A stretch of DNA of 32,444 bases from the NCBI GenBank assembly GCA_016183775.1, contig JACPDY010000156.1, positions 1 to 32,444 on the forward strand, in the 5' to 3' direction. The stretch comes from Bacteroidota bacterium (lineage in GTDB: Bacteria > Bacteroidota > Bacteroidia > JABDFU01). This document shows, in pieces, positions 2,476-21,804 of the stretch; the first letter of the stretch is position 1, and each line of letters begins with the position of its first letter. The translations under genes and the position numbers were made by a program. The notes under the pieces were generated by a model that did not search any database, was not told where the DNA came from, and was given only the letters and a program-made list of their open reading frames with translations.

Positions 2476-2594
2476 CCGGTATTTCAGCATCTCAGGGCAT
2501 TTACCCTTGAAGTTTACCTGTAATTTTTATTCAAATCGATTCTCATTGATGTTGATCTGTTTTGGACCTAACCAATGATCATATTGTTTATTTT

Positions 2595-4172
2595 ATGGAT
2601 ACTGAAAACAAAAAAATAAAAGGTCTGTCTTTTAAATACCTTAAAAATGATCTGCCGGCCGGCCTGGTGGTATTTCTCGTAGCATTACCACTTTGTTTAG
2701 GCATTGCACTGGCATCAGGCGCTCCTTTATTTTCAGGGATCATTGCAGGAATGGTCGGCGGCATTGTTGTAGCGTTTGCGAGCGGTTCATCCCTGAGTGT
2801 CAGTGGCCCTGCTGCCGGACTTACAGTAATTGTACTGAATGCTATCACTCAGCTGGGAAGTTACGAGGTCTTTTTATCCGCCGTTGTTTTGGCAGGATTG
2901 ATCCAGATAATACTGGGCTTTTTAAAGGCCGGAATTATCGGGTACTACTTCCCTTCAAGTGTTATTAAAGGAATGTTGGCCGCTATCGGTATTATTTTAA
3001 TACTAAAACAATTCCCTCATGCAATAGGATACGACAAAAATAACGAAGGAGATTTTGATTTTATTCAAACTGACGGACAAAATACATTTTCGGAAATTTT
3101 CAACGCCATCAATTATATTCATCCCGGCGCGATAATCATCGCCGCGATTTCACTTTTTATCCTGATAATTTGGGAGCGACCCTTTTTGAAAAAATTCGCC
3201 TTTTTTAAAATTGTCCCAGGTGCATTATTAGTGGTCGTAATCGGCATTGTTATTAATGAATTATTTAAAATAAACAATTCTGCGCTTCAGTTATCCGGCG
3301 ATAAACTGGTACAATTGCCCGTAGCAACTTCCGCAACAGGATTCATAAATCAATTTACACTACCTGATTTTTCAGCGTTTAAGAATTACAATGTATATGT
3401 AGTGGCTGTTACTATAGCGATCATCGCCAGCCTGGAATCACTCCTCAGCATTGAGGCTGCTGACAAGCTGGATCCGTATAAGCGGGTTACCCCGACCAGT
3501 CGTGAATTAAAAGCGCAGGGGCTGGGTAATTTTATTTCGGGATTAATAGGAGGTTTGCCTTTAACAGCAGTTATTGTCCGCAGCTCTGCGAATATCAATG
3601 CGGGAGGTAAAACCAAATTATCTGCCATAATTCACGGTCTGCTTTTATTACTTAGCGTGATCGGCCTTGCTTCAGTTCTTAACAAAATACCACTTGCCTG
3701 TTTGGCGGCGTTGTTGCTGGTTGTTGGCTATAAACTCGCTAAGGTTTCACTGTTTCAATCCATGTACAGGCTAGGCTGGAACCAATTTTTGCCATTTATT
3801 ATTACAGTTGTTGCCATTCAGTTTTCTGACCTGTTAAAAGGAATAGGAATTGGCATGGTTGTTTCTGTTTTCTTCATTCTGCGCAGTAATTATAAGCGGG
3901 CCTATTTCTATCATAAGGAGAAACAAGGTGAAGAAGAAAGGATCAGGATCGAACTGGCTGAGGATGTTACATTCCTCAACAAAGGCAGCATTGCGCTTAC
4001 ACTTGATCAATTACCCGATAATTCTAATGTAGTGATTGACGGCACAAGATCGCACAATATTGATCTCGACGTACTTGAGATCATTCACAATTTTAAAAGC
4101 AATGTGGAATTAAAAAACATAAAACTGGAGTTGAAAAATATTCCCGACTTCAACGGGGTTGCAGGACATTAA
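2595..4172 (+). CDS. SulP-family anion (probable bicarbonate) transporter
   Basis: This 525-residue inner-membrane SulP/SLC26 transporter shows the N-terminal motif LVVFLVALPLCLGIALASGAP, the family segment SVSGPAAGLT near residue 80, and NxNAGGKTKLSAIIHG near residue 340. A C-terminal STAS-like region starts near residue 440 (RIELAEDVTFLNK). ATG 2595 is preferred over TTG 2562, since the extra residues are not membrane-like. The stop overlaps the longest possible DabA frame. It is a close paralogue of the SulP half of the gene at 8705 but has no carbonic anhydrase domain. Family members carry sulfate, bicarbonate or other anions. The DabAB and carbonic-anhydrase neighbours make bicarbonate the best guess, but substrate cannot be read from sequence. 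Confidence 0.85.
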   Translation: MDTENKKIKGLSFKYLKNDLPAGLVVFLVALPLCLGIALASGAPLFSGIIAGMVGGIVVAFASGSSLSVSGPAAGLTVIVLNAITQLGSYEVFLSAVVLAGLIQIILGFLKAGIIGYYFPSSVIKGMLAAIGIILILKQFPHAIGYDKNNEGDFDFIQTDGQNTFSEIFNAINYIHPGAIIIAAISLFILIIWERPFLKKFAFFKIVPGALLVVVIGIVINELFKINNSALQLSGDKLVQLPVATSATGFINQFTLPDFSAFKNYNVYVVAVTIAIIASLESLLSIEAADKLDPYKRVTPTSRELKAQGLGNFISGLIGGLPLTAVIVRSSANINAGGKTKLSAIIHGLLLLLSVIGLASVLNKIPLACLAALLLVVGYKLAKVSLFQSMYRLGWNQFLPFIITVVAIQFSDLLKGIGIGMVVSVFFILRSNYKRAYFYHKEKQGEEERIRIELAEDVTFLNKGSIALTLDQLPDNSNVVIDGTRSHNIDLDVLEIIHNFKSNVELKNIKLELKNIPDFNGVAGH

Positions 4173-4185
4173 AAAACTGAACAAA

Positions 4186-6810
4186 ATGCCGGTTGAAATT
4201 ATTGATACAGAAAAAAAACTGAACAAATCTTTAAATATGTCTGTTCCGCAAGGTCATACAACGAATTCCACATTTAAAAATATCCGGGACTGTTCATTTG
4301 ACGAAAACCATACGTTACATGAATTGAAACACTATTTGCCTTCACAAACTCCGCTGAAAGATTTTATTCACCACAACTCTCTCCATGCATTTCAAAATCT
4401 AAAATTTTATGAAGCCATTTTTAAGTCTTCCGGAATATTCGGGTACCAGGTTACTCTCCAACTGAGTGAATACAGGGAATTGTACAAAACAGGACGAATA
4501 AAAAATGATATTCTTGAAAGAATTATCACTCAACAAAAAGGACCTGAAAATGCAGAAAAGTGGAAGCAAAACTTAATCTCAAAAGAATATAATACATGTA
4601 ATTCGCCGAAAATCGGATCATTGAGGTCGAACTGGAAAAGTCAATATAAAATTGACCTTGATTCCTTTGTTCAGCCCCTTCTATTCCGGATTCTTTGCAG
4701 CTATCTTGACCAGGGTATTTCCATATGGAATTTCCCTTCCGACAACAAAGGTTTTCTTTCTTCAATAAAAGAATTGGAGAAAAACAGTTTTGCCAGTTTC
4801 TTTAAAACAAAAAGAGCCAAAGACCTTCTGTTAAGCGAAGACCACAGCGTTAAAAGTCTGCTCAAAATCATTGTTGGGAACGAATCCTTTTATGAGCAAT
4901 ATTTGTTCGATCAGCAGTTCAGTCATCATGGGTGGTCGGGCATTGTATCTGCAATAGAGGACCTCCCCCATTCGCTGCTTGATCGTAAAAATATTACACT
5001 TTATGATCTCATCGTATTCGAACTGCTGCTTGAAATTGACGCGCTTGACAGCCAATTGGGAAAAAACTGGGAACCGATTTGTAACAACCTGCAAAATGAA
5101 CCTGCGGAATTATTTGCCGAAACTCCGCTTACAGAATTAAATGAGGTTTTTATACTATGGCAGGACGCTTTTGAATGGAGTTATTACGATGAAGTGCTTG
5201 CAGGGATTTTATCGGAAAAAAAAAGAACCCCGACAGCTCCTGCTAATAAGTCTTTCCAGGCTATGTTCTGTATTGATGAACGGGAATGTTCACTGCGGCG
5301 ACATATTGAAAATATTGATCCCGCCTGCGAAACATATGGCACCCCTGGATTTTTCGGGGTTGAATTTTATTTCCAACCCGAAAATGGAAAATTTTATGAC
5401 AAGCTTTGTCCCGCCCCGGTAACTCCAAAATACCTTGTCAAAGAATATGAAGTGAAAGAAAAAAGGAAGCATGAATTATTGTACACCAATAAAACGCATA
5501 CACTCCTGACGGGTTTTGTTATTGCCATCTGCCTTGGCATTTGGGCAGGTGTTCAGCTATTCCTGAATATATTCAGGCCAAAGATGAGTCCCGCGATTTC
5601 GAATGCATTTACTCACATGCATAAAAATTCAAAACTCATCATTGAAAATAAAAATACAGGGGATCGCGAAAATGATCTGCAGGTAGGATTTACCGTCGAA
5701 GAAATGGCGGCAAGGGTTGAAGGTCTTTTACGTGGGATCGGGTTGATCAAAGATTTTGCCCCGATCATTTATGCTGTTGCACATGGTTCAAGCAGTGCTA
5801 ATAATCCGCACCATGGCGCGCACGACTGCGGCGCCTGCAGCGGAAGACCCGGATCGGTAAATGCAAAAGTGTTTTCTTTTATGGCTAACCATCCTGAGGT
5901 AAGAGAGCTGTTGCGGAAGCGGGGGATTGATATACCGGGCGAGACACAATTTGTAGGAAGTTTGCATGACACCGCAGGTGATGAAATGGAGTTCTACGAT
6001 GAGCAAGTGCTGAACGATACGAACGCGAAAAACCACAAAAAAAACAAACTCGCATTTGAAAGAGCGTTGGACCTGAATGCCAAAGAAAGATCCAGGAGAT
6101 TTGCCTCTATCAATACGAAAAATAAATTGCAGGTAGTGCGTAAGGCTATTAAGGACAGGTCTGTTTCATTGTTTGAGCCACGGCCGGAACTCGGACACGG
6201 AACCAACTCTCTTTGTATTGTGGGAAGCAGGAACATTACGAAGAACCTGTTTTTAGACAGGCGCGCATTTCTGAATTCTTACGATTACAAAACTGATCCT
6301 GAAGGTAAAATTCTATCAGGTGTTATGAAGCCACTCGGGCCTGTTTGCGGCGGCATTAATCTTGAATATTATTTTTCAAGAGTGGATAATCATAAGGTCG
6401 GCGCGGGAACCAAGCTGCCACACAATGTGATGGGACTAATTGGTGTTGCCAACAGCAGTGATGGCGACCTGAGGGCCGGCCTTCCGTTACAAATGATCGA
6501 AGTTCATGATCCTGTCCGTTTATTGATCATTGTTGAACATTTCCCTGCGGTGGTTTTAAAAACAATTCAAGCCGTTCCGGAAATGTATGAATGGTTTATA
6601 AACGACTGGGTTCATTTAATTGTTATCGATCCGGAAACCAATAAGTTCAACTACTTTAAAAATGGAGTATTCACAGAGTACATTCCGCTTACAAAAGAAA
6701 CAGGTGTTGTTAAAGAAATGAATACCCTGATAGAATCGGCCAATGAAATGGAAACCAATTACATTGTAGATGCCACAAAAGAAAATTTGCCCGTTTATTC
6801 ATTAAAATAA
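4186..6810 (+). CDS. dabA: DabA, inorganic-carbon uptake subunit (DUF2309)
   Basis: DabA is the cytoplasmic, zinc-containing, beta-carbonic-anhydrase-like subunit of the DAB/Mps system. It is thought to hydrate CO2 to bicarbonate in a one-way manner coupled to cation flux through DabB. Counting from ATG 4186 (874 residues), the zinc and catalytic residues are present: C362 and D364 in FCIDERE, H533 in VAHGSSS and C548 in HDCGACSG. The H-to-C spacing of 15 matches the characterised Halothiobacillus protein (H524/C539). The family segment LKDFIHHNSLHAFQ is near residue 57, and a single hydrophobic stretch near residue 450 may sit on the membrane partner. TTG 4159 would extend it into the SulP stop. 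It is followed after 7 bp by dabB. No disruption is seen. Confidence 0.93.
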   Translation: MPVEIIDTEKKLNKSLNMSVPQGHTTNSTFKNIRDCSFDENHTLHELKHYLPSQTPLKDFIHHNSLHAFQNLKFYEAIFKSSGIFGYQVTLQLSEYRELYKTGRIKNDILERIITQQKGPENAEKWKQNLISKEYNTCNSPKIGSLRSNWKSQYKIDLDSFVQPLLFRILCSYLDQGISIWNFPSDNKGFLSSIKELEKNSFASFFKTKRAKDLLLSEDHSVKSLLKIIVGNESFYEQYLFDQQFSHHGWSGIVSAIEDLPHSLLDRKNITLYDLIVFELLLEIDALDSQLGKNWEPICNNLQNEPAELFAETPLTELNEVFILWQDAFEWSYYDEVLAGILSEKKRTPTAPANKSFQAMFCIDERECSLRRHIENIDPACETYGTPGFFGVEFYFQPENGKFYDKLCPAPVTPKYLVKEYEVKEKRKHELLYTNKTHTLLTGFVIAICLGIWAGVQLFLNIFRPKMSPAISNAFTHMHKNSKLIIENKNTGDRENDLQVGFTVEEMAARVEGLLRGIGLIKDFAPIIYAVAHGSSSANNPHHGAHDCGACSGRPGSVNAKVFSFMANHPEVRELLRKRGIDIPGETQFVGSLHDTAGDEMEFYDEQVLNDTNAKNHKKNKLAFERALDLNAKERSRRFASINTKNKLQVVRKAIKDRSVSLFEPRPELGHGTNSLCIVGSRNITKNLFLDRRAFLNSYDYKTDPEGKILSGVMKPLGPVCGGINLEYYFSRVDNHKVGAGTKLPHNVMGLIGVANSSDGDLRAGLPLQMIEVHDPVRLLIIVEHFPAVVLKTIQAVPEMYEWFINDWVHLIVIDPETNKFNYFKNGVFTEYIPLTKETGVVKEMNTLIESANEMETNYIVDATKENLPVYSLK

Positions 6811-6817
6811 ATATTTT

Positions 6818-8689
6818 ATGCCGGAGTTATTACAGCTTTTTATATGGATCCCCTTATTGGGTTTTATAGCCAGCCTGTTCATCCCAAAAAAAAACGAATC
6901 CGTTATATCGTTTATTACTATTTCAACTTTGGGGATACATTTATTGGGAATTTTGCTTTTTATAACATATTGGGCAATAAATCATTTTCCAATATTGGAT
7001 ATAAAACATATCACCATTTTTCAGACAGAAAATATTGAAATTTTTATTGATTATTATTTCGATAAGGTAACCGCTGTATTCACAGCTATAGGCTCATTTC
7101 TTGCTTTTCTGGTAGCTATTTTCAGCCGCTATTATATGCACAGGGAGGAAGGTTATAAACGCTTTTTCAGTACAGTGCTTCTGTTCTTTTTGGGATACAA
7201 TCTCATCATCATTTCAGGAAATTTTGAGACCATGTTTGTCGGATGGGAACTTTTGGGGGTATGTTCATTTTTACTTATTGCATTTTACAGGGACCGGTAT
7301 CTGCCGGTAAAAAACGCTTTAAAAGTTATTTCCTTTTATCGCTTCAGTGATATATGCCTGATACTTGCCATGTGGATGAGTCATCACTTATGGCATGAAA
7401 ACATTACCTTTTTAAAACTTAACGATCTGCCATTAGTGGAAGAACACCTGCGGGAACATAATTGGTATGGTGTTTTTATTTCACTAATGATCATAATTGC
7501 GGCGGCGATTAAATCCGCGCAGCTCCCCTTCTCTTCCTGGCTGCCCAGAGCCATGGAGGGGCCAACCACTTCCAGCGCCATTTTTTATGGCTCGCTTTCT
7601 GTTCACATAGGTGTTTTTCTTTTACTGCGGACTTTCCCTTATTGGGAAAGCCTCAGCACTATTAAAGCGCTAGTGATCATAACAGGTATCTCAACAAGTA
7701 TTATCGCGACGAGCACCGCGAGGGTTCAATCAACCGTTAAAACACAAATTGCATATTCCTCCATCGCGCAGATCGGATTGATCTTTGTTGAGGTCGCACT
7801 CGGCTTTCATGGTCTTGCCTTGCTGCATTTTACCGGGAATGCCCTTTTAAGAACCTACCAGCTGCTGGTCTCCCCTTCCGTGTTAAGTTATCTGACACAT
7901 GATATGGTTTTCAACTTTATACCTAAAAAGAGCAATGGCAATAATTCCGTCTTTAGTTATATAAAAAATTCGTTTTATATTTTATCAGTAAAAGAATGGA
8001 ACCTGGATCATTTACAAACCCGTATTTTATGGAATCCTTTTAAATGGATAGGAAAAAAACTACACTTTCTCACCCATCAGATATCTCTTATTCTATTAAC
8101 TGTCATTTACATGATGGGGGTATATCTTGATCTCATCCAGGAAAAAATTCCGATCGACTTATTTGAGCTTTTGCCATTCCTGTATTCTTTTCTTGGCTTA
8201 CTGTTAATATTAAAGGCCTTTGCAGAAAGCGGAAGTGCTATCCGGGCCTGGCTCTTTGTCATAGCGGGTCAATTATTTATCACCCTTGCCATTGTATTGT
8301 TAAATGAAAACTTCGGACAAAACCATATTCTCATTTACTTAAGCGGCTCTGTTATTTCTGCTATAGCGGGGTACATTTGTTTAAAAAAAATAAAAGCGAT
8401 AGATAATAACATTGACCTGAACCGATTTCATGGCTATACGTACGAGCAGCCAAAACTTGGTTTTATTTTCCTGCTTTCCTGTTTGGGTTTGATCGGGTTA
8501 CCTCTTACTCCTACGTTCATAGGCATCGATCTTTTGTTTAGTCATATTCATAAACACCAGGAAATATTAATAATTTTTACATCCCTGAGTTTTGTGTTTT
8601 TAGAATTGTCCATTTTGAGGATCTATGCCCGCATTTTTCTTGGCCAACATAAGAAGGCCTATCACCCAATCGCTTACAGATCATCCTAA
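6818..8689 (+). CDS. dabB: DabB, NuoL/MrpA-like membrane subunit of DAB carbon uptake
   Basis: This 623-residue polytopic protein of the proton-translocating NADH dehydrogenase/Mrp antiporter family (PF00361) is the likely membrane partner of DabA. It keeps the family glutamate (E144 in GWELLGVCSF, the same number as NuoL E144) and the TM7 lysine (K232 in KSAQLPFSSWLPRAMEGPT). The NuoL HAATM histidine region reads AIFYGSLSVH, and the HAFFKALLFL-type lysine segment reads FTGNALLRTYQLL, so K is replaced by R. These changes are consistent with DabB rather than a respiratory subunit, and no other nuo or mrp gene is nearby. It sits between dabA (7-bp gap) and the SulP::CA gene (15-bp gap), clearly in one operon. 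Confidence 0.92.
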   Translation: MPELLQLFIWIPLLGFIASLFIPKKNESVISFITISTLGIHLLGILLFITYWAINHFPILDIKHITIFQTENIEIFIDYYFDKVTAVFTAIGSFLAFLVAIFSRYYMHREEGYKRFFSTVLLFFLGYNLIIISGNFETMFVGWELLGVCSFLLIAFYRDRYLPVKNALKVISFYRFSDICLILAMWMSHHLWHENITFLKLNDLPLVEEHLREHNWYGVFISLMIIIAAAIKSAQLPFSSWLPRAMEGPTTSSAIFYGSLSVHIGVFLLLRTFPYWESLSTIKALVIITGISTSIIATSTARVQSTVKTQIAYSSIAQIGLIFVEVALGFHGLALLHFTGNALLRTYQLLVSPSVLSYLTHDMVFNFIPKKSNGNNSVFSYIKNSFYILSVKEWNLDHLQTRILWNPFKWIGKKLHFLTHQISLILLTVIYMMGVYLDLIQEKIPIDLFELLPFLYSFLGLLLILKAFAESGSAIRAWLFVIAGQLFITLAIVLLNENFGQNHILIYLSGSVISAIAGYICLKKIKAIDNNIDLNRFHGYTYEQPKLGFIFLLSCLGLIGLPLTPTFIGIDLLFSHIHKHQEILIIFTSLSFVFLELSILRIYARIFLGQHKKAYHPIAYRSS

Positions 8690-8704
8690 AAAAAAATCGA
8701 AAAC

Positions 8705-10870
8705 ATGACAACCGCAAAATCCGGGAATGATATTCCGGCAAGTATAGTTGTTTTTCTGGTGGCACTGCCGCTTTCATTGGGGGTGGCTTTGGCTTCCGGC
8801 GCGCCTTTGATATCGGGAGTGATTTCCGGGATCATCGGAGGAATAGTTGTTGGCCTTTTAAGCGGCTCACAAACAAGCGTAAGCGGCCCGGCTGCCGGAC
8901 TTACCGTAATTGTCCTGGGCTGCATCACTCAGTTAAGTTTTGACGTGTTTCTTATTGCTGTTCTATTATCCGGTATAATTCAGATCATTATGGGGGTCTT
9001 GAAGACCGGAATGATAGCCAGTTATGTTCCTTCAAACGTTATTAAAGGTTTATTAGCGGCCATAGGTATTATACTTATTTTTAAGCAACTACCTCATGCT
9101 GTGGGGTATGATATAGATGCCGAAGAAGATTTTTCATTTTTACAACGTGACAATGAAAATACCTTTTCTGAACTCCTGAAAATGGTAAACTACATTACCC
9201 CCGGAGCAATCGTTATCAGCACAGTATCGGTTATCATTTTATTTTATTGGGATAAAACTCCTTTAAAAAAATTAAAAAATGTTCCGGCCTCTCTTTTTAT
9301 AGTGATCCTGGGAGTAGCGCTCAACTATCTTTTTATTAACTTTTTCCCATACCTGAGTATAGAATCGTCTCACCTGGTTAATATCCCTCAACTCAATATC
9401 GACAACCCACAGTCATACCTTCATCTCCCCAACCTTGAACATATAAAAGATTATCGCGTTATAACTGCCGCCTTCACAATTGCCGCTGTAGGGTCATTGG
9501 AAACTCTTTTAAACATTGAAGCCGTTGATAGAATAGACCCTCATAAAAGAGAATCTCCCCCTAACCGTGAATTGGTTGCGCAAGGTGTTGGCAATATGAT
9601 GGCAGGGCTTTGGGGAGGGATCCCTATAACATCTATTATTGTACGAAGCTCGGTAAATATTAACGCCGGAAACGAAACAAAACTATCGGCAGTTCTGCAT
9701 GGTGTGTTTATGCTCATAAGTGTATTGACATTAACTCACGTATTAAATCTGATACCGCTGGCATCACTGGCCGCTATACTCTTAATAACCGGCTATAAAC
9801 TTACAAAGGTGCCCTTGTTTAAAGAAATGTACCGGAAAGGCTGGCATCAATTCATTCCATTTGTCGTTACAATTATTGCCATTGTTTTCACCGATCTGTT
9901 GGTTGGAGTTTTGATCGGACTTACAGTCAGTGTTTTCTATTTAATGCACAGCAATTACAAGAATCCGTTCACAATGGATAAGGATAAATTACATATCGGC
10001 GAAGTGGTACGATTAGAATTAGCTGATCAGGTTTCATTTCTTAATAAACCCTCCATTAAAGATACGCTATGGCAAGTGCCCGAAAATTCAAAAGTGATTA
10101 TTGATGCGACTTATTCCGACTTTATTGACAACGATGTTTTAGAAATAATACACGATTATAAGACCACGGTAGCTCCTGAACGAAATATTCAATTAAATAT
10201 ATTGGGTCTAAAGGAAAAATACGAATTATCCGATCATATACAATTCGTAAATGTTCTCGATAAAAAAACTCAGCAAAATCTATCACCTGCCGAAATTTTA
10301 AACTTACTGAAAGCCGGCAATGAACGATTTATAAACGGCAAATGGAATGAAAAATATTTCCGTCACCAGGTAAATGCCACATCCATGGGGCAAAACCCAA
10401 TGGCGGTAATTATCAGCTGTATAGATTCAAGAACCTCACCCGAAATAATTTTTGATGCAGGGATCGGGGATCTGCTTATTATCCGGATTGCAGGAAACAT
10501 CATTAGCCCCGAAATTATCGGGAGCATTGAGCTCTCTGTCAAAAAAATAGGCGCGAAATTAATCCTGGTAATGGGACATTCGAATTGTGGCGCCGTAAAT
10601 GGGGCTATTCAACAAATACGTGAAGGCAATATAGGAACAGTAACATCCAAAATAGATAAAGCAATTGCAAAATGCGGACACAAGCATTCAGAAATAGACA
10701 CAAATAACATTCACATTATAAAAGAAATAACGTGGATGAATGTTGAAAATTCCATTTCGGAAATACTGGAACAAAGCAGTTATCTGAAAAACCGGTTTTT
10801 AAACAATGAGATAGGGATCGTATCGTCCTATTATGACACCTCTTCCGGAAAAGTATACTACAGCAGATAA
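8705..10870 (+). CDS. SulP transporter fused to beta-carbonic anhydrase
   Basis: This 721-residue fusion has a SulP membrane domain at residues 1-420 (LVALPLSLGVALASGAP near 16, SVSGPAAGLT near 60) and a STAS-like domain at about 430-520. A complete beta-carbonic anhydrase domain runs from about 525 to the end. Zinc ligands and the Asp-Arg dyad are present: C572, D574 and R576 in SCIDSRTS, then H625 and C628 in GHSNCGAV. The likely role is import of bicarbonate with immediate CO2/HCO3- interconversion on the cytoplasmic face. It is the last gene of the SulP-dabA-dabB operon and converges on the phosphatase-like gene 40 bp away. The SulP half is plainly paralogous to the gene at 2595. The frame is unbroken across the junction. 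Confidence 0.92.
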   Translation: MTTAKSGNDIPASIVVFLVALPLSLGVALASGAPLISGVISGIIGGIVVGLLSGSQTSVSGPAAGLTVIVLGCITQLSFDVFLIAVLLSGIIQIIMGVLKTGMIASYVPSNVIKGLLAAIGIILIFKQLPHAVGYDIDAEEDFSFLQRDNENTFSELLKMVNYITPGAIVISTVSVIILFYWDKTPLKKLKNVPASLFIVILGVALNYLFINFFPYLSIESSHLVNIPQLNIDNPQSYLHLPNLEHIKDYRVITAAFTIAAVGSLETLLNIEAVDRIDPHKRESPPNRELVAQGVGNMMAGLWGGIPITSIIVRSSVNINAGNETKLSAVLHGVFMLISVLTLTHVLNLIPLASLAAILLITGYKLTKVPLFKEMYRKGWHQFIPFVVTIIAIVFTDLLVGVLIGLTVSVFYLMHSNYKNPFTMDKDKLHIGEVVRLELADQVSFLNKPSIKDTLWQVPENSKVIIDATYSDFIDNDVLEIIHDYKTTVAPERNIQLNILGLKEKYELSDHIQFVNVLDKKTQQNLSPAEILNLLKAGNERFINGKWNEKYFRHQVNATSMGQNPMAVIISCIDSRTSPEIIFDAGIGDLLIIRIAGNIISPEIIGSIELSVKKIGAKLILVMGHSNCGAVNGAIQQIREGNIGTVTSKIDKAIAKCGHKHSEIDTNNIHIIKEITWMNVENSISEILEQSSYLKNRFLNNEIGIVSSYYDTSSGKVYYSR

Positions 10871-10910: not shown

Positions 10911-11591
10911 TCAATGATAGTCTCCCTGATCACTCATTATAATGCCCCTTGCTTTCTCAGCCAGGTATAACATTTCAACAGCTATCTGCTTATTCAGATC
11001 GGAATATTTTGATTTTTCCTGCGGGGTTTTCTCAAACACTGTAGGACTCTGATAGGGCAAGTTCATTGCATCCGAACTCAAACTGCTTACCGGTTCGCCC
11101 GCGAAACATATACTTACCACAACACTATTACTTGTATCTATTGTTCCCGATATTGTCTTTGGATAAATGCCATGCTTCTGGTATTGTTCGCTGATATAAA
11201 ATACATAGGCCTTTGGCTTAGTAGTGGACTCCGAGAAGGCAAATCCGGATTTTTTTAAAACAGAAATGACCTCCGGATAGACCTCTGAAACAGTATCTCC
11301 ATATGAAAATGCCATCTTATTAAAAATACCATAATAATAAAAAGCGGTTTGCATCCACGTTTGAAGAAACTGCGTACGCCTGGTATTAGTGCGGCATGTA
11401 AAAATGATATTTCTTTTGTGCGCGATTTCATCTGCCAGTTTGTCTAATATTTCCTTTCTACCGGCCGGAATAGCGAAGTATTCCCTTGTCGCGGTCTCAC
11501 AAAACCGGTTCAGACTTTTATTGAAGCGCAGCTTTTGTGAGTAAGTAACCACAGTCGCAGTTAAAGCAAATAACATCAATATTCTTTTCAT
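10911..11591 (-). CDS. Exported low-molecular-weight phosphatase/ArsC-like protein
   Basis: This 226-residue protein has a clear signal peptide (MKRILMLFALTATVVTYSQ), so it is probably periplasmic. The P-loop of the LMW tyrosine phosphatase/thioredoxin-type arsenate reductase fold is present: C66-R-T-N-T-R-R72 fits C(x)5R, followed by TQ. Near the C-terminus the family region with an Asp-Pro general acid appears to read YQSP (S182-P183), so the acid may be lost. The region QEKSKYSDLNKQIAVEMLYL resembles the C-terminal helix of Bacteroidota homologues. Family members are normally cytosolic, so export is unusual. The gene is divergent from the TonB receptor and has its own Pho-type operator. 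It could be a phosphatase or a phosphate/arsenate binder; activity is uncertain. Confidence 0.6.
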   Translation of the reverse strand: MKRILMLFALTATVVTYSQKLRFNKSLNRFCETATREYFAIPAGRKEILDKLADEIAHKRNIIFTCRTNTRRTQFLQTWMQTAFYYYGIFNKMAFSYGDTVSEVYPEVISVLKKSGFAFSESTTKPKAYVFYISEQYQKHGIYPKTISGTIDTSNSVVVSICFAGEPVSSLSSDAMNLPYQSPTVFEKTPQEKSKYSDLNKQIAVEMLYLAEKARGIIMSDQGDYH

Positions 11592-11596
11592 AAACG

Positions 11597-11641
11597 TGAA
11601 ACTACAGGCTTTAGGTTTTAGAAATGTTAATTAATCATTAA
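11597..11641 (-). promoter_or_regulatory. Pho-box-like operator for the exported phosphatase-like gene
   Basis: Minus-strand units TTAATGA (11641-11635), TTAACAT (11630-11624) and the weaker AAAACCT (11619-11613) are spaced 11 bp. TAGTTTCA (11604-11597) stands in the -7 position with 6 of 8 consensus matches, 18-19 bp after the start of the last unit, as in the other Pho-type promoters here. Two good units and a weak third make this the least certain of the set together with the pstS one. Confidence 0.5.
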
Positions 11642-11679
11642 CAAACGATTATGGTATTTCCCAAAAATAATTCACTTTA

Positions 11680-11755: not shown

Positions 11756-14659
11756 ATGCGACTTAAAAAAATATTGCTATTACTGTTTGTTTACTTATCC
11801 ACAATACATATGTATGGACAAACGGGCAACGAAACCAATAAGCCAAAAAGTGATGCCAAAGGAATTATACAAGGGCAGCTGATCGACAGCAAAACAGGAG
11901 AAACATTGCCGGGTGCAATTGTAACCATCGATGGTACTACTATAGCCGCAATAACTGATATAGATGGAAATTTTCATTTAAGAAACGTGTCACCCGGGAC
12001 ATATAAATTAAATTTCAAACTTATTTCATATGCTACAAAAGTGGTGAGCGATATAACAGTTACCGGGAAAGAGGCCAGGGTTGTGAATATTTCACTTGAC
12101 GCCTCAAGTTCAGAATTGATGGAAATTGTTGTGGAGGCAAAAGTAAACAGGGAATCGAATGTTTCACTTATAATACAACAAAAAAATAACGCGTCTGTTT
12201 CAGATGGCATTTCCGCCGAAACGATCAAACGAACCCCCGACAGAACAACCAGTGATGTATTGAAACGTGTTAGCGGAACCACTATCCAGGAAAATAAATT
12301 TGCAATTATACGCGGGTTAAATGACCGTTATAATTTCGCGTTGATCAATGGCGCTCCTCTTCCCAGCTCCGAAAGCGACAGGAAAGCATTCGCGTTTGAC
12401 ATTTTTCCGGCCAATACGTTAGATAATATTATTATTGTTAAAACCGGAACCCCCGATATGCCGGGTGAATTCGCCGGAGGAATCATTCAGCTGAATACAA
12501 AAAGCATACCTGATGAAAATAAACAAACCGTTTCCATCTCCGGTTCATTTAACTCATTCACAACATTCAAAGAATTTCAAACCTACAAGGGCGGAAAATC
12601 AGATTGGATAGGAGTTGACGATGGGACAAGAGCGTTATCGGGATCAATACCAACATCCGCTGGAATGGGCAGTGCAAGTGTTGATGAAAAGGCCAGGCTT
12701 GCCAAACATATGAGTTATGACTGGGGTATAATTTCAAAAACTGCAATGCCAAATACAAATTTTCAATATAGCTGTGCGCGAAACACAACCATTTTTGGTA
12801 AAGAATTCGGCATACTTGGCGCCCTCACCTACCAGAAAAATTTCAGTACAAACTATACAATACGCAAAGACTTTGAGGGAGAGAACGGGGATATCATAGT
12901 TCCTAAAGTTGCTTTAAAAGATACCTCTTATAACGAGAACACTTTATCAAGCGCACTTCTTAATTTTTCATATAAAATTAACCAGAATAACCTGTTGAGT
13001 TTTAAAAATTTATACAGCATAAACTCCGACGACAGACTCACTATAAGAGCCGGCGCCAGAGATCTTGATCAGACCGACAAAACATGGGAGCGATCATCCG
13101 CCAGGTGGTTTACACAAAATATGTTTTACTCAAACCAACTGAGCGGAGACCACCTTGTTTTTCAGAACAAATGTAAATTCAACTGGAACATTGCATTCAG
13201 CAATATCAACCGAACAGTTCCTGCTTTAAGAAAGAATGTATATCAAAAGGTAGCCCAGGAAGAAAGCGATGCCAATACTCCTTACGTAGCTGTTATACAA
13301 CAAAACGGAGTTTCTACCTTTGGAGGCGGAAATATGTTCTTCTCCGGGTCGGATGAGCAAATGCGCAGCGTAAAATATGATCTATCCATTCCTTCTGATA
13401 TAACAAAATGGGGTATTAAAAACACCATTAAAATAGGTGCCTACCATCAACTCAGGGATCGCGATTTTACTGTCCGGAGCTTTGGATTCTCAAAATACCG
13501 GAAAGGCAGCAGCATTAAATTTGTTGACAGCCTGCTGTTGCTGTCCGACAACCAGATCTTCTCTGAGGCTAACCTTGGGCAAATGAACCTCGCGGCACCT
13601 TATAACGGAGGATTTAAACTGGAAGAATCCACAAAGATCTCAGATAATTACCAGGCGTCTTCACAATTACATGCGGGTTATTTTATGCTGGATACACGCG
13701 TGTTTGAAAAAATCAGGTTAGTGTGGGGCGCAAGGGTCGAATCATACAACCAGGTGTTCAGCTATATTGAGTTTGGAAGCAATTCTTCCAAACACATCGA
13801 CACCACAGTTATAGACATATTGCCATCTGCCAACGTCATCTATTCATTAAATGAAAAAATGAATCTTCGTTTTGCCTATTACAAAACAGTTTCGAGACCT
13901 GAATTCCGTGAGCTGGCACCTTTCTCATTCTACAATTTTATTCTTGACAATATTTGGAACGGCGACCCCACGCTTAAACGTGCCGAAATATATAACTATG
14001 ATTTCCGGTATGAATGGTATCCATCAGGAGTGCAGATGATCTCCGTCTCAGCCTTTTATAAAGACTTTATTAATCCTATTGAAACCGTTAACAGGCATGC
14101 GGTTTCGGGAGCACCAGAATTGTATTTCACCAATATTCCCAAATCAATCAACTACGGTGCGGAGCTGGAATACCGGATCAATCTCGGCATATTCACAAAA
14201 AATGATTCCAACATTCTTCTTTCAAATACAAGCCTTTTCTCCAATATCGCTTTTATCAAATCAGAAGTGGATAACAAAAATGTTGTGGGGGCCACCTCCC
14301 GACCGCTACAGGGACAATCACCCTATGTTGTCAACGGGGGCATTTCGTTTATGCATCCCAAATATGATTTCAGTATAAGCGTAGCATATAATATAGTCGG
14401 AAGACGGATATGGATCGTTGGAAACACACAGGAACCTGATATCTGGGAAAATCCAAGACATGTTTTAGACTTTCAACTGACTAAAACGTTTAAAAAGAAA
14501 TTCGAAATGAAAATCAATGCGCGCGACCTTCTTGCTCAAAATCAGATTTTCTACCAGGACATTAATAAGAACGGGAAGGCCGACAAGAATACGGACAACT
14601 ACATGATAGAAACCAGGTACGCTCCTACCTGCTCTGTTTCTCTTTCCTATAAATTTTAA
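11756..14659 (+). CDS. TonB-dependent outer-membrane receptor, phosphate-locus type
   Basis: This 967-residue protein has a signal peptide (to about residue 22), a carboxypeptidase-regulatory-like beta domain at about 35-123 (IIQGQLIDSKTGETLPGA) and a plug domain at about 140-250 (RTPDRTTSDVLKRVSG, IIRGLNDRYN). A large beta-barrel ends SLSYKF with the terminal aromatic used for barrel assembly. It imports a ligand across the outer membrane using TonB energy. No SusD-type lipoprotein gene follows; the next gene encodes a T9SS-sorted beta-helix protein. Pho-type operator units upstream and the pst genes downstream suggest a phosphorus-containing ligand, which is inference. The length is usual for SusC-independent receptors with this N-domain. 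Confidence 0.9.
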   Translation: MRLKKILLLLFVYLSTIHMYGQTGNETNKPKSDAKGIIQGQLIDSKTGETLPGAIVTIDGTTIAAITDIDGNFHLRNVSPGTYKLNFKLISYATKVVSDITVTGKEARVVNISLDASSSELMEIVVEAKVNRESNVSLIIQQKNNASVSDGISAETIKRTPDRTTSDVLKRVSGTTIQENKFAIIRGLNDRYNFALINGAPLPSSESDRKAFAFDIFPANTLDNIIIVKTGTPDMPGEFAGGIIQLNTKSIPDENKQTVSISGSFNSFTTFKEFQTYKGGKSDWIGVDDGTRALSGSIPTSAGMGSASVDEKARLAKHMSYDWGIISKTAMPNTNFQYSCARNTTIFGKEFGILGALTYQKNFSTNYTIRKDFEGENGDIIVPKVALKDTSYNENTLSSALLNFSYKINQNNLLSFKNLYSINSDDRLTIRAGARDLDQTDKTWERSSARWFTQNMFYSNQLSGDHLVFQNKCKFNWNIAFSNINRTVPALRKNVYQKVAQEESDANTPYVAVIQQNGVSTFGGGNMFFSGSDEQMRSVKYDLSIPSDITKWGIKNTIKIGAYHQLRDRDFTVRSFGFSKYRKGSSIKFVDSLLLLSDNQIFSEANLGQMNLAAPYNGGFKLEESTKISDNYQASSQLHAGYFMLDTRVFEKIRLVWGARVESYNQVFSYIEFGSNSSKHIDTTVIDILPSANVIYSLNEKMNLRFAYYKTVSRPEFRELAPFSFYNFILDNIWNGDPTLKRAEIYNYDFRYEWYPSGVQMISVSAFYKDFINPIETVNRHAVSGAPELYFTNIPKSINYGAELEYRINLGIFTKNDSNILLSNTSLFSNIAFIKSEVDNKNVVGATSRPLQGQSPYVVNGGISFMHPKYDFSISVAYNIVGRRIWIVGNTQEPDIWENPRHVLDFQLTKTFKKKFEMKINARDLLAQNQIFYQDINKNGKADKNTDNYMIETRYAPTCSVSLSYKF

Positions 14660-14751
14660 TTTCCGTTTACACATTTTTAACATGGCATGTCACCCTGCAA
14701 TCGGAATTAAACAAAGAGTTTGATCCCCATACAATTCCTCAATATCTATTA

Positions 14752-14807
14752 ATAATGTTTGCTTAATCCTGTATTAATTACAAGGTAACATTGCCTTTAC
14801 ACTTTTG
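14752..14807 (+). promoter_or_regulatory. Pho-box-like operator and promoter of the beta-helix gene
   Basis: Units ATAATGT (14752, weak), TTAATCC (14763), TTAATTA (14774) and GTAACAT (14785) lie at an exact 11-bp period. CACTTTTG (14800-14807) is in -7 position, with TTTG 19 bp after the last unit start. The start codon at 14833 is 26 bp downstream. This gives the gene its own promoter besides any readthrough from the TonB gene. Confidence 0.62.
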
Positions 14808-14832
14808 CAGTGTAATTAAAACTGAAAAGAAA

Positions 14833-16479
14833 ATGAAAATGAAAAAAATTTACCTCGCATGTATGAGTGGCTTAATGGTAATCTCCATAAGCGCGCAAAC
14901 CAAATTCTGGAACAATGTGCCTTACCAGGGCGCCTTTCCCATAACCGACAACACCCCTGCAACGGACTGGACAAGCGGCTGGGCAAACTTCGATCCGGAG
15001 AATACGGTTTATCCGGCTATAACCATGACAGTCAGTGCGGATATAACTGCAAATACAACCTGGACCACAGGTAGTATAATATTGCTTCAAAATAAAATAT
15101 ATGTTAAGAACGGCGCTACCCTTACCATTCAACCCGGTGTTATTATCCGCGGCGATAATGCAACCGCGGGAACGCTGATCATTACACAGGGTGCTAAAAT
15201 CAATGCCCAGGGAACCGCCTCCAATCCCATTGTGTTCACATCTAATGAAGCTATTGGGAACAGGGCCGAAGGCGATTGGGGTGGTGTAATCATTCTTGGC
15301 AAAGCTGTTTCTAACCAGGGAACTTCTAATATTGAAGGTCTTGCCGCTACAACTGACACACAATTCGGAGGTTCTGACGACCAGGATTCTTCAGGTGTAC
15401 TTTCGTATGTGCGAATTGAGTTTCCTGGTGTGGAATTCCAGCCCACTAAAGAAATTAATGGATTAACAATGGGCGCTGTGGGTTCAAAAACACAGATCGA
15501 TCATATTCAGGTGTCATTTTCCGGTGATGATTCTTATGAATGGTTTGGCGGAACGGTATCTGCAAAGTACCTCATCGCCTTCCGGGGTCTGGATGATGAT
15601 TTTGATACTGATTTTGGTTTCAGGGGACGCATACAGTTCGGACTGGCCATTCGCGATAAAGATCTTTCCGATGCTGCCGGCGATTCCAATAGCTTTGAAT
15701 CTGATAATGATGCGAGTGGTTCTAACATGCAGCCTCTTACTGCAGCTGTATTTTCTAATATTACCATTGTTGGCCCTAAGAGGGATGGCTTGACTGCCCT
15801 TCCTGTAGGCGAGAAGTTTGAGAAAGCTTTCCGCATCAGGAGAAACAGTTCTGTTTCCATATTTAACTCGCTCATCATTGGTTGGGAAAAAGGATTATCT
15901 GTTGAAGGCTCTGCTACCGAAAATAACTTTACAGGTGATACCGCTTATTTTTCAAACAATCTCCTGGTTGATCTCCCTGCAGGGGTTAATGTCGTTACGG
16001 CTGCAAGTTCCTTTTACGCTACCTTCTTTGGAAGCGACATGAACGATTCTACTAAAACAAAAACGCAGGTGAATTGGGTGAATCCGTTCCCTTCTAATTT
16101 GTACGACAGTCCTGACTTCAGATTAAATACGGGATCTGTAGCGGCAACTGGCGCTGATTTTAACAACATAAAGTTTGCAGGCCAGATAACCTCAGTCAGC
16201 AAAGGGAAAGATTCTGAATTTTCGGGAGTATCTGTATATCCTAACCCGGCTCAAAATAATTCCTCACTTACTTTTGAGCTGAACAACCCTTCTATGGTAA
16301 ACATTTCTTTACATAGTGTTACAGGACAAGAAGTGGTTTCCATACTCAAGAATATTCAGATGCCTGCAGGAGTTCAACAGGTAAATATAAACACAGAGGA
16401 GTTTAGTTCTGGAATTTACTTTCTGAATATAACAGTTCTGGAATTAACCAAAACGATAAAACTGGTGGTAAATAAATAA
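14833..16479 (+). CDS. T9SS-secreted right-handed beta-helix surface protein
   Basis: This 548-residue protein starts at ATG 14833 with a signal peptide (KKIYLACMSGLMVISISAQ). The TTG at 14791 lies in the promoter and is rejected. The body contains short beta-helix-like rungs (NGATLTIQPGVIIRG, then GDWGGVIILGKA) and many Asp/Gly turns such as RGLDDDFDTDFGFRG. From about residue 463 a type IX sorting domain begins (SVYPNPAQ) and ends KTIKLVVNK, so the protein is exported and attached to the cell surface. It lies between the TonB receptor and the OprP-type porin and has a Pho-type operator, so it may bind phosphate or an organic phosphorus compound at the surface. No catalytic motif was recognised. 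A strong terminator follows. Confidence 0.82.
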   Translation: MKMKKIYLACMSGLMVISISAQTKFWNNVPYQGAFPITDNTPATDWTSGWANFDPENTVYPAITMTVSADITANTTWTTGSIILLQNKIYVKNGATLTIQPGVIIRGDNATAGTLIITQGAKINAQGTASNPIVFTSNEAIGNRAEGDWGGVIILGKAVSNQGTSNIEGLAATTDTQFGGSDDQDSSGVLSYVRIEFPGVEFQPTKEINGLTMGAVGSKTQIDHIQVSFSGDDSYEWFGGTVSAKYLIAFRGLDDDFDTDFGFRGRIQFGLAIRDKDLSDAAGDSNSFESDNDASGSNMQPLTAAVFSNITIVGPKRDGLTALPVGEKFEKAFRIRRNSSVSIFNSLIIGWEKGLSVEGSATENNFTGDTAYFSNNLLVDLPAGVNVVTAASSFYATFFGSDMNDSTKTKTQVNWVNPFPSNLYDSPDFRLNTGSVAATGADFNNIKFAGQITSVSKGKDSEFSGVSVYPNPAQNNSSLTFELNNPSMVNISLHSVTGQEVVSILKNIQMPAGVQQVNINTEEFSSGIYFLNITVLELTKTIKLVVNK

Positions 16480-16531: not shown

Positions 16532-16700
16532 ATGAGATAAGACCCTCCAGATATTTCCGATAAAGCCTTTGAAATAAATGGCCTGTTTAACACAAATCTG
16601 TTTTTTGAAGATTTTCTGCCTATTGATATTATACCTGATCCGATCCAACAATCGAAAATCAATACGCCGCCTAAAGGCCTTTTACACCCGAATCCGGCAA
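16532..16700. other. Non-coding part of the beta-helix/porin gap
   Basis: The gap between the beta-helix and porin genes is 324 bp. It holds the terminator (16494-16531) and the Pho-type promoter (16701-16756). Between them short open frames exist on both strands (for example a 64-codon minus frame), but none has a recognisable product or plausible start context. I see no RNA gene. Confidence 0.5.
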
Positions 16701-16756
16701 TTAACAATTATTTAACATTGAATACGCATTTAATTAACGTCACTGAAAGTTCTTTG
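16701..16756 (+). promoter_or_regulatory. Pho-box-like operator and promoter of the porin gene
   Basis: Units TTAACAA (16701), TTAACAT (16712), TACGCAT (16723) and TTAACGT (16734) lie at an exact 11-bp period. GTTCTTTG (16749-16756) follows, its TTTG 19 bp after the last unit start. This is the clearest four-unit example in the window. The start ATG is 48 bp downstream at 16804. Confidence 0.7.
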
Positions 16757-16803
16757 TCGTGTTAAATGTAAAATATTTGTTAATTAATTGTAATTGTAAA
16801 CTT

Positions 16804-18015
16804 ATGAAAGTTAAACTATTGTTAATTTCATTCGGACTGAGTTGTATTCAATTAAATGCACAAGTACCAGCTGATACGTCCAAAGCAAAACCAACAGAAG
16901 AAAAAAAGAAACAATGGTATGAAACCATTACAATACGCGGATACTCACAAGTGCGATATAATAGACTGTTGGAAACAAATGATTCATTAAAATGTGAGCA
17001 ATGTGATAAGTCATGGGGCAGCGGCGGGTTTTTTATCAGACGAATGCGCTTAATATTTTATGGAAATGTTCACGACAGGGTATATATATACATCCAGCCC
17101 GATTTTGCATCATCACCTTCTACCGGAAGTAATCATTTTGGGCAGCTCCGGGACGCCTATTTTGATCTTTCATTAGACAATAAGAAAGAATTCCGATTCC
17201 GCGTTGGTCAAAGCAAAGTGCCATTTGGCTTTGAAAATCTACAGTCAAGCCAAAACAGGTTACCCCTTGATCGTAACGATGCATTAAACAGTGCTCTTTC
17301 AAACGAACGTGACCTTGGAGTGTTTTTTTATTGGGCGCCGGAGAAGATCAGAAAAAGATTTGCTTCGCTGGTGAATGATGGATATAAAGGATCGGGCGAC
17401 TATGGCGTTTTTGGTTTAGGTGCCTATAATGGACAAACCGCAAATAAGACTGATGTAAACAAAGACCCGCATATTGTTGCCCGTCTATCATACCCGTTTG
17501 AAATTAAAGGGCAAACAATTGAAGCAGGTATTCAGGGATATGCAGGTCAATACGTTGTTGAAAGTCGCACTACAGGTGTAAAGGGTCCAAATAAAGAGTT
17601 TTCATTTACAGACGAAAGGGTTGCCGCCAGTTTTGTCCTTTTTCCAAAACCGCTAGGCATTCAGGCTGAATACAATGTCGGTCGCGGACCGGAATTCAAT
17701 AAAGTGACGGATTCTATTGAAACACGTGATCTGAAAGGAGGGTATATTACTGTTTCGTGTATGCTGAAAATGAAGAAACAGCTCATTATTCCATTTGTAA
17801 GAACGCAATTCTATGAAGGGGGTAAAAAACACGAAACCGATGCAAGAAGCTATAGAGTTAAGGAACATGAATTCGGCATTGAATGGCAACCGATAAAAAA
17901 TTTCGAATTGGTAGCTATGTATACAATATCGGAAAGAAAATTTGAAGATTTTAAATTACAAAACAATGATCAAAAGGGAAGTCTGCTGCGTTTGCAGGCG
18001 CAGTTTAATTTTTAA
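16804..18015 (+). CDS. OprP/OprO-type phosphate-selective porin
   Basis: This 403-residue outer-membrane beta-barrel begins at ATG 16804 with a signal peptide (MKVKLLLISFGLSCIQLNAQ). GTG 16759 is rejected because it adds residues before the signal and falls next to the promoter. It has the family pattern of an early IRGYSQVRYNR strand, FFIRRMRLIFYGN, a segment FRVGQSKVPFGFENLQSS and a C-terminal strand ending LRLQAQFNF. In the OprP family this barrel is a trimeric channel for phosphate or pyrophosphate. The gene lies 70 bp before pstS and has its own Pho-type promoter, supporting phosphate as substrate. Bacteroidota members are diverse and the lysine ladder of OprP was not verified. Confidence 0.83.
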   Translation: MKVKLLLISFGLSCIQLNAQVPADTSKAKPTEEKKKQWYETITIRGYSQVRYNRLLETNDSLKCEQCDKSWGSGGFFIRRMRLIFYGNVHDRVYIYIQPDFASSPSTGSNHFGQLRDAYFDLSLDNKKEFRFRVGQSKVPFGFENLQSSQNRLPLDRNDALNSALSNERDLGVFFYWAPEKIRKRFASLVNDGYKGSGDYGVFGLGAYNGQTANKTDVNKDPHIVARLSYPFEIKGQTIEAGIQGYAGQYVVESRTTGVKGPNKEFSFTDERVAASFVLFPKPLGIQAEYNVGRGPEFNKVTDSIETRDLKGGYITVSCMLKMKKQLIIPFVRTQFYEGGKKHETDARSYRVKEHEFGIEWQPIKNFELVAMYTISERKFEDFKLQNNDQKGSLLRLQAQFNF

Positions 18016-18025
18016 AAAAAATATA

Positions 18026-18070
18026 TTAACCCTATGTTAACATTCAAGTGCAACAAGTTAACTTACTTTA
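18026..18070 (+). promoter_or_regulatory. Pho-box-like operator and promoter of pstS
   Basis: TTAACCC (18026), TTAACAT (18037) and a degenerate unit GTGCAAC (18048) lie at an 11-bp period. TTACTTTA (18063-18070) is in the -7 position, again 19 bp after the last unit. A further TTAACTT lies out of register at 18058. It fits the set but the last unit and -7 element are weak. pstS may also be read from the porin promoter. Confidence 0.5.
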
Positions 18071-18085: not shown

Positions 18086-19060
18086 ATGATGTCGAAATCA
18101 TTTTCAACTCTATTAATCATTGGAGCAGGATTAACTATCGTCTCTTGTGGTGGTGGTTCAAAGCAAAACGAAGGCTCAGAAGCCGGAAAAATACAGGGCG
18201 AGGTTAAAATTGACGGATCAAGTACGGTTTATCCGATCACAGAAGCGATCGCTGAAGAATTCAAAAAAACATTTCCGGATGTTAAGGTTACCGTTGGCCT
18301 TTCAGGAACAGGTGGTGGATTTAAAAAATTCGGAAGGAACGAAATAGATATCAATGACGCTTCCCGCCCTATTACACATTCTGAAGATAGTATTTGCAAA
18401 GCGAACAACATAAATTATCATGAAGTATTGGTTGCATATGATGGCCTTGCTGTTGTTGTCAATCCCAAAAACGATTGGGCAAATGACATTACTGTAGCCG
18501 AACTAAAGAAATTATGGGCTCCGGAAGCGCAAGGAAAAATAACAAAATGGAGCCAGGTGCGCGCAGGCTGGCCTGATGAAGAAATTCGTTTGTATGGGGC
18601 CGGTGTTGAATCGGGCACCTATGATTACTTCACCGAAGTTGTTGTCGGCAAGAGCCACTCAAGCAGAGGTGATTATACGGCAAGCGAAGATGACAATGTA
18701 TTAGTGCAGGGAATATCTACTGATAAAAACGCGTTGGGTTTCTTCGGCCTGGCCTACTTCGAAGAAAATGCGGATAAATTAAAACTTTTGCCTGTTGATG
18801 ACGGCAAAGATGATAACGGAAAAGGTCCCATTGCGCCATCAATTGAAACTGTGAAAAACAAAACGTATGTGCCCCTGGGCCGTCCATTGTTCATCTATAT
18901 AAATGACAAAGGAGTCCAGCGTAAAGAAGTTCAGGAATTTGTTAAATTTTATATTGACAATGCCGGCACTCTTAGCAAAGAAGTCGGATATGTGCCGCTA
19001 ACTGATGAGGAAACCAAATCCGAAATGGAAAAATTCAACAGTTTCATGGGTAAAAAATAA
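18086..19060 (+). CDS. pstS: PstS, phosphate-binding lipoprotein of the Pst ABC importer
   Basis: This 324-residue protein has a lipoprotein signal (lipobox IVSC, Cys21, then GGGS) and so is tethered in the periplasm. Phosphate-contact motifs of the PstS family are visible: [29 protein letters not shown] and [12 protein letters not shown]. It captures phosphate and hands it to PstC/PstA. ATG 18086 and 18089 are equivalent choices. A 12-bp hairpin lies between it and pstC, suggesting pstS is made in excess. The length is normal. Confidence 0.95.
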
Positions 19061-19098
19061 TTATTTTCGTGACTGATTTGTTTAGTGAAGATTGCTTT

Positions 19099-19131
19099 AA
19101 CTGGTCCCGGCATAAATATCCGGGATCAGTT
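19099..19131 (+). promoter_or_regulatory. Intercistronic hairpin between pstS and pstC
   Basis: AACTGGTCCCGG (19099-19110) pairs with CCGGGATCAGTT (19120-19131) across a 9-base loop. All pairs are Watson-Crick except one G-U. A short T-rich tract follows. It may act as a partial terminator or a 3'-end stabiliser that raises pstS mRNA above pstCAB. Confidence 0.75.
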
Positions 19132-19150
19132 ATTCTTATGTTAAATTACT

Positions 19151-20876: not shown

Positions 20877-20931
20877 CCGGAACAATGGCCATTTGTAATC
20901 CTTTGGTTCAATCCGATCCTATTATAAAAGA

Positions 20932-21804
20932 ATGGGAATTCTAATTGATAGTGGCATGGAACTTATCGAAAAAACAAAACGTGATTCTTCGGTTGACACA
21001 GAATTATTAAAAAAATACGAAACAAACAGCATGGCAACAGATTATGTAAAGAAACCCAAGATAGCCGTAAAAGACATCAATCTCTACTACGGTGACTTCC
21101 ATGCGTTGAAAGGCATTACAATGTCAATGGAAGAAAATACAGTGATTGCACTCATTGGTCCATCGGGCTGCGGCAAGTCTACTTTTTTAAGACTATTTAA
21201 CCGGATGAATGACCTGATCTCAAATGTAAAAGTTTCAGGCTATGTGATGATTGATGGAAAAGACATTAACGACAGGTCAACGAATGTTGATGAGCTAAGA
21301 AAAAATATTGGCATGGTTTTTCAAAAACCAAATCCTTTCCCAAAATCAATTTTTGAGAACGTTGCTTATGGCTTACGGGTAAATGGTATAAAAGACAAAA
21401 AATTCATCGAAGGGCGCGTTGAACGCTCCCTCAGGCAATCTGCATTATGGGATGAGGTAAAAGATAAACTGAAAAAATCTGCATTTGAACTATCCGGCGG
21501 TCAGCAGCAGCGTTTGTGCATTGCACGCGCATTAGCAATTGAGCCGTCGGTGATCCTTATGGATGAACCTGCATCAGCACTTGATCCTATCTCGACAGCT
21601 AAAATTGAAGAGCTGATCTATGAGTTAAAAAATCAATACACCATTATTATTGTAACACATAATATGCAGCAAGCAGGCAGGGTGAGTGACAAAACTGCTT
21701 TTTTTTACATGGGTGAGCTGATCGAATATGATACAACAAAAACTATATTCACCAATCCTGCCAATGCAAGAACACAAAATTATATTACAGGAAGGTTTGG
21801 GTAG
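20932..21804 (+). CDS. pstB: PstB, phosphate ABC importer ATPase
   Basis: This cytoplasmic ATPase powers PstCA. Visible motifs are Walker [10 protein letters not shown] (K82 from this start), the signature LSGGQQQR, Walker [14 protein letters not shown] and the H-loop [11 protein letters not shown]. PstB specificity segments such as [19 protein letters not shown] are present. The frame from ATG 20932 gives 290 residues, about 35 longer than usual. ATG 21031 (MATDYVKK) gives the standard 257 and may be the true start, though the intervening codons look like ordinary coding sequence. It is followed by phoU after 103 bp containing a perfect palindrome. Confidence 0.95.

Follow-up and report, generated by a model that had tools for sequence, protein, structure and literature searches.

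A predicted exported ArsC relative that has lost its general acid and resolving cysteine is linked to phosphate genes in Bacteroidota

The 32,444-nucleotide stretch of Bacteroidota DNA analysed here in full (the window; contig JACPDY010000156.1 of assembly GCA_016183775.1) carries at 10911-11591, on the reverse strand, a gene for an acid-less protein of the ArsC/LMW-PTP fold. The open reading frame starts with an ATG at 11591, ends in TGA and encodes 226 amino acids, predicted to be exported. Its divergent neighbour is a TIGR01782-like TonB-dependent receptor (11756-14659, forward strand), followed on that strand by a T9SS-sorted repeat protein (14791-16479; a beta-helix by inspection only), a porin of the phosphate-selective O/P family (16759-18015) and pstS, pstC, pstA, pstB and phoU (18086-22576). 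A PiT phosphate transporter and a DUF47/PhoU-like protein are encoded at 176-1891 on the reverse strand, and together these genes bear out the original prediction of a phosphate locus. Most neighbour names used in this work derive from the cluster to which a gene belongs, whose representative was scanned with Pfam. Positions 2562-10870, which lie between the PiT and Pst genes, also hold an inorganic-carbon uptake cluster of SulP, DabA, a DabB-like Proton_antipo_M protein and a SulP-carbonic anhydrase fusion; at the same position in the same-genus genome G002 (locus L069) only SulP and a carbonic-anhydrase-like ORF, named by eye, are found.

The N-terminus of the acid-less protein, MKRILMLFALTATVVTYS-Q, combines two positive charges with an 11-residue hydrophobic core (mean Kyte-Doolittle 2.45), and residues 1-19 (11535-11591, reverse strand) are predicted to form a signal peptide with cleavage near YS-Q. 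An SQ or AQ after the hydrophobic core is a clade-wide pattern in the alignment of relatives, and in a 38-sequence alignment the canonical cytosolic relatives begin downstream of this hydrophobic segment. This pattern agrees with the export signal proposed earlier, a candidate Sec-type signal peptide by which the protein is predicted to leave the cytosol. A search of the window genome itself finds a single copy of the gene.

Searched alone, the window protein matches no Pfam family even at E 10, has no significant match in a PDB sequence search and reaches ArsC in NCBIfam only below threshold. Because single-protein Pfam and PDB searches were unusable, family alignments and profiles were used instead. 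Relatives, partly from MAGs, were gathered by searching related genomes and samples drawn across the class and across the phylum, and by one GTDB scan; when the class was searched a second time, the genomes drawn were almost all those of the first search. In the phylum-wide draw the acid-less clade occurs in 1/395 genomes, that of the window. Eleven carrier genomes are known from all searches. Clade II, acid-less and with predicted export, comprises the window protein, G008, G122, G181 and G208 (these four from one genus), G033, G106 and the MAG locus L025; clade I, likewise with predicted export, comprises G095, G157 and G186 from one genus. The two form one clade with support of 100/99, the canonical exported proteins falling outside it, and a third tier of relatives consists of canonical ArsC-like proteins that are cytosolic or exported. 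A different, membrane-linked variant is seen at L014 (G057) and L022 (G013), where open frames of 391-419 aa carry a canonical ArsC-like domain behind an N-terminal region resembling several membrane helices.

The 38-sequence alignment contains 10 exported acid-less and 28 canonical sequences, the protein of G157 being left out as its frame is broken. Its profile matches B. subtilis ArsC at E 5e-16 and also S. aureus pI258 ArsC, placing the family's DPK motif on the GFDDPA loop of both enzymes and its CP motif on Cys89. At E 0.01, TIGR02691 (thioredoxin-type ArsC) matches 28/38 family members and PF01451 (LMWPc) 15/38, the window protein being in neither set. An AlphaFold model from the same alignment (pLDDT 88, pTM 0.86) replaced a poor earlier one from four sequences (pLDDT 60); since it was built on the family alignment, it is not independent evidence for the position of the acid. 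The top PDB structure matches of the model are ArsC 1jl3, pI258 ArsC and DiArsC2, with LMW-PTPs ranking lower. By profile and by predicted structure, then, the closest match of the window protein is thioredoxin-type ArsC. The LMW-phosphatase/ArsC-like fold named in the original prediction was right as to lineage and too broad as to the nearest relative.

In ArsC and LMW-PTPs an aspartate serves as general acid/base, and in ArsC a resolving cysteine hands the disulfide on to thioredoxin. The ArsC cysteines act as a Cys10-Cys82-Cys89 relay, in which the role of Cys89 has been described (PMC2714181). The P-loop of the window protein, C66-RTNTR-R72 (11376-11396, reverse strand), holds the equivalents of Cys10 and Arg16. 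It is intact at the residue numbers first given for it and is kept in 38/38 sequences with C66, N69, R71 and R72 invariant; followed by T73, it reads as the LMW-PTP-type C-x5-R-(S/T). C162 (11106-11108, reverse strand), equivalent to Cys82, is also kept in 38/38. The Cys89 equivalent expected after it is absent, a second loss that had escaped notice. The first loss, recorded in the original prediction as Ser-Pro where Asp-Pro was expected, lies at S182-P183 (11043-11048, reverse strand), with S182 aligned to the invariant Asp of DPK, the general acid of ArsC Asp105 type.

Canonical members keep the C-T-[HS]-N-[SA]-R-R-S loop, the CP resolving cysteine and the DP acid without exception (28/28), whereas the exported acid-less proteins have the acid Asp in 0/10 and the resolving cysteine in 0/10. 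S, T or N stands at the acid position in 10/10, with S or T in clade II and Asn in clade I (G095 and G186 in the alignment, G157 by eye). Both losses are clade-wide and not due to chance. Misalignment of the DP motif is ruled out by the Y/F180 flank and the following residues, which are gap-free in all 38 sequences, and no other Asp takes the acid position, so the alignment result that would have overturned the original prediction does not occur. As relocated acids, neither Asp99, invariant in clade II only and absent from clade I, nor Glu187, at whose position canonical rows have Asp, is a clear replacement. At position 192 every exported acid-less protein has Glu, whereas the canonical rows vary. 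Cysteines 31, 66 and 162 are invariant in the clade, and most members have no others.

Pairwise dN/dS within genus g4, the only genus compared, is 0.12-0.30, which indicates purifying selection on the gene there, and a four-member alignment has about 60 invariant columns. Loss of a catalytic residue throughout the clade, in a gene under selection (as measured in one genus), is the signature of a pseudoenzyme. Two copies are damaged. In G002 a frameshifted, stop-containing remnant (L069 8889-9078) lies between the porin and the carbonic-anhydrase-like ORF, and neither the receptor nor the T9SS protein is found at that site. In G157 the clade I gene (L062 8757-9422) has one in-frame TAG at a conserved Trp codon and an otherwise open frame; the stop may be real or a sequence error. 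The remnant and the stop suggest that the gene is dispensable in some strains.

Phosphate genes recur beside the gene in other genomes. For instance, the G008 locus combines it with porin, PstSCAB, PhoU, DUF47, PiT and a histidine kinase, and the G122 and G181 loci with porin, DUF47, PiT and a histidine kinase; DUF47 and a histidine kinase lie near it in L025, and PPK1 and Ppx in G033. L025 and G208 likewise have homologues of the receptor and the T9SS repeat protein near the gene, and the pair travels together beside it (window 11756-16479, L025 8862-13596, L058 3023-12464). No phosphate neighbours are found at G106 or at the clade I loci, where the genes adjoin ftsZ, ftsA and mur genes. If six lineages are distinguished (the window, genus g4, L025, G033, G106 and clade I), 4/6 are linked to Pst/PiT/porin or ppk-ppx loci. 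Chance linkage is rejected, the probability of at least 4/6 being about 1e-7 to 1e-5 if 1-3% of a genome is assumed to be close to a phosphate locus.

Canonical exported members, by comparison, sit in operons of the ArsR-DUF6428-gene-ACR3 type. A periplasmic location had been regarded as an oddity for this family; these exported relatives with complete active sites remove that ground for surprise. In one ACR3-type operon (L068 6451-8844, G094) two canonical ArsC-like paralogues occur together, one of cytosolic type and one exported. Above-cutoff ACR3 is absent from 10/11 genomes carrying the acid-less gene, G106 being the exception and the L025 genome having a sub-cutoff match, and ArsB is found in none of the 11. 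The phosphate context and the missing exporters lead us to reject an arsenic function as the main role, and the arsenate discrimination once suggested for the window protein finds no positive support beside phosphate genes and Pho-type boxes.

These boxes are TTAACA direct repeats with an 11-bp period, the geometry of the E. coli Pho box, and occur upstream of porin and PiT-DUF47 genes. A matrix was trained on five porin/PiT sites, none of them at an acid-less gene, and then scanned over all loci. One training site precedes the window porin (16700-16719, forward strand; score 24.5). The acid-less gene of the window has a repeat, GTTAATGATTAATTAACATT (11623-11642, reverse strand), 31 bp upstream of its ATG and 113 bp upstream of the divergent receptor; it scores 15.0, just above the 14.2 maximum of 20 shuffled windows. 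With a threshold of 15, set after the scores were seen, boxes lie directly upstream of 5/11 acid-less genes and 0/35 canonical genes, whose best score is 12.3. The window box has the lowest score among them; the others are those of G008 (24.7), G095 (24.2), G157 (22.8) and G186 (15.4). All three clade I genes thus have a box, beside ftsZ and away from phosphate neighbours. Fisher's test gives p 3e-4 by gene, a count that includes boxes from close relatives, and 0.002 by lineage (3/6 lineages). A box of 19.9 in G208 precedes the receptor gene, which lies just before the acid-less gene. In G106, G122, G181, G033 and L025 the stretch immediately upstream of the gene contains no strong box.

Elsewhere, repeats of this kind occur at 1942-1961 (upstream of the PiT and DUF47 genes), 16700-16719 and 18025-18044 of the window and in L055, L056, L059 and L069. 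They sit upstream of porin, DUF47-PiT and, more weakly (13.7), PstS, and some porin promoters have two. The TTAACA box resembles the TTTAACA core obtained by DAP-seq for PhoP of Riemerella anatipestifer, a member of the Bacteroidota in which PhoP is reported to be up in phosphate starvation (PMC9603813). From its geometry, the porin and PiT genes that carry it and the Riemerella site, the repeat is a candidate PhoB site.

The sequences therefore describe a protein of ArsC ancestry with two clade-wide losses, a retained loop, purifying selection (in one genus), linkage to phosphate genes and Pho-type boxes shared with porin and PiT genes. With the acid and the resolving cysteine gone and a predicted non-cytosolic location, turnover should be crippled, while the oxyanion-binding loop is untouched. 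A role changed from that of the parent family, as the original prediction had it, is very likely, and phosphate linkage combined with ArsC ancestry suggests an enzyme turned into a phosphate-handling or sensing protein. The explanation we favour, at about an even chance, is a periplasmic protein under Pho control, descended from ArsC and crippled as a catalyst, that binds phosphate or a phospho-ligand, its export, induction and binding being what we infer.

Such a descendant of thioredoxin-type ArsC would be able to complete neither parent reaction: loss of the acid Asp would abolish phosphatase or reductase turnover, and loss of the resolving cysteine recycling by thioredoxin. It would retain the whole oxyanion-binding loop with a reactive Cys66, and a second cysteine, Cys162. 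Under phosphate starvation the protein would be co-produced with Pst, PiT and the phosphate porin and reside in the periplasm, where inorganic phosphate or some phosphorylated ligand may occupy its P-loop, possibly as a persistent phosphocysteine. Occupancy, or the redox state of Cys66-Cys162, could then assist or report phosphate acquisition. There is a precedent in the PRL phosphatases, pseudophosphatases acting on transporters, in which the loss of an Asp, together with the presence of a second cysteine, stabilises phosphocysteine for weeks (PMC12192612). Crippled turnover, an intact loop and this analogy together favour a starvation-response protein that holds phosphate or a phospho-ligand. 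Against it stand G106, which has neither box nor phosphate neighbours, the small number of lineages (six), and the retained nucleophile and S/T after the Arg, which also fit residual catalysis. A narrower proposal is put forward tentatively: in Bacteroidota, arsenate reductase gave rise to a periplasmic protein that senses or captures phosphate, its P-loop having become, through loss of the acid and the resolving cysteine, a long-lived holder of phosphate or phosphocysteine that signals to or feeds Pst/PhoR.

A slow phosphatase or a thiol switch is possible. The former ranks next after the phosphate-holding explanation, as a minority possibility: a slow periplasmic phosphomonoesterase or phosphotransferase for activated substrates with low-pKa leaving groups, in which Ser182, another acid (Asp99, Glu187 or Glu192) or solvent stands in for the Asp. 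C66, N69, R72 and S/T73 are all kept, clade II has gained its invariant Asp99, Glu192 is fixed in the clade, exported phosphatases are part of how Flavobacterium responds to phosphate starvation (PMC8115612), and the first PRL step proceeds without Asp (PMC12192612). Yet the Asp is gone in every member, and three different replacements argue against a new acid at that site; Asp99 does not extend to clade I, and position 187, acidic in canonical rows too, offers no compensation. Hydrolysis of phosphorylated compounds, as first suggested, is disfavoured.

A single-turnover periplasmic arsenate reductase or scavenger, in which a Cys66-As adduct would give way to a Cys66-Cys162 disulfide re-reduced by another thiol system, is improbable. 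It could draw on ArsC ancestry, on the retained Cys10 and Cys82 equivalents and on canonical exported cousins in ArsR-ACR3 operons. The structure matches also include 1lk0, titled as the disulfide intermediate of a C89L ArsC mutant; this artificial counterpart of the naturally Cys89-less window protein would represent its natural state. The loss of both the resolving cysteine and the Asp and the linkage to phosphate rather than arsenic genes tell against it, and with ACR3 mostly missing and ArsB absent, the arsenite product would have no known ArsB/ACR3 exit. Quite unlikely, too, is a periplasmic thiol/disulfide switch in which Cys66-Cys162 is oxidised and the P-loop merely tunes thiol reactivity: the three invariant cysteines invite it, but a pure redox role does not explain why N69, R71 and R72 are kept or why the gene is linked to phosphate. 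That the gene is a functionless, decaying relict of an exported ArsC is very improbable, for despite the G002 remnant, the G157 stop and the rarity in the phylum, the low dN/dS, the invariant columns and the conserved linkage and promoter boxes speak against decay.

Compared with thioredoxin ArsC (B. subtilis 1jl3, S. aureus pI258), the window protein shares the fold, the P-loop Cys10 and Arg16 and the second cysteine, Cys82; it differs in its predicted export, the absent Cys89, the change of Asp105 to Ser, extra N-terminal helices and the lack of an arsenic operon. Its direct relatives are the ArsC-like family of Bacteroidota ArsR-DUF6428-ACR3 operons, about 20-35% identical, with the same N-terminal helical extension and some of them exported; of the residues that these conserve, only those of the P-loop and the first two cysteines survive in the acid-less clade. 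With LMW-PTPs (LMW-PTP, YwlE, Wzb) it shares the superfamily fold and C-x5-R loop, whereas the match is weaker, the general acid is missing and the protein is predicted to be exported. The PRL/PTP4A pseudophosphatases resemble it in their intact P-loop Cys and Arg, and their phosphocysteine state, second cysteine as a switch and transporter target (PMC12192612) make a functional analogy only, since they are eukaryotic and of another fold family. In the Flavobacterium Pho regulon, phosphate-regulated TonB-dependent transporters lie beside FI/FII/FIII exoproteins (PMC8115612), an arrangement that 11756-16479 of the window resembles; the main text of that paper contains neither 'tyrosine phosphatase' nor 'arsen'. 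In the open-access literature we found no description of an exported acid-less ArsC.

It appears that an old protein of the arsenate-reductase type is exported by a small and scattered set of Bacteroidota. A family of enzymes for arsenic detoxification has here clearly given rise to a protein linked to phosphate, and matched controls exist in the complete-site exported cousins of arsenic operons and in acid-less cousins that carry Pho-type boxes. Confirmation of the TTAACA box would provide a simple means to map the phosphate regulons of uncultured Bacteroidota. Should the protein prove to bind phosphate, the periplasm would contain a phosphate handler unlike PstS, and nature would have provided a test of what a P-loop does once its acid is gone.
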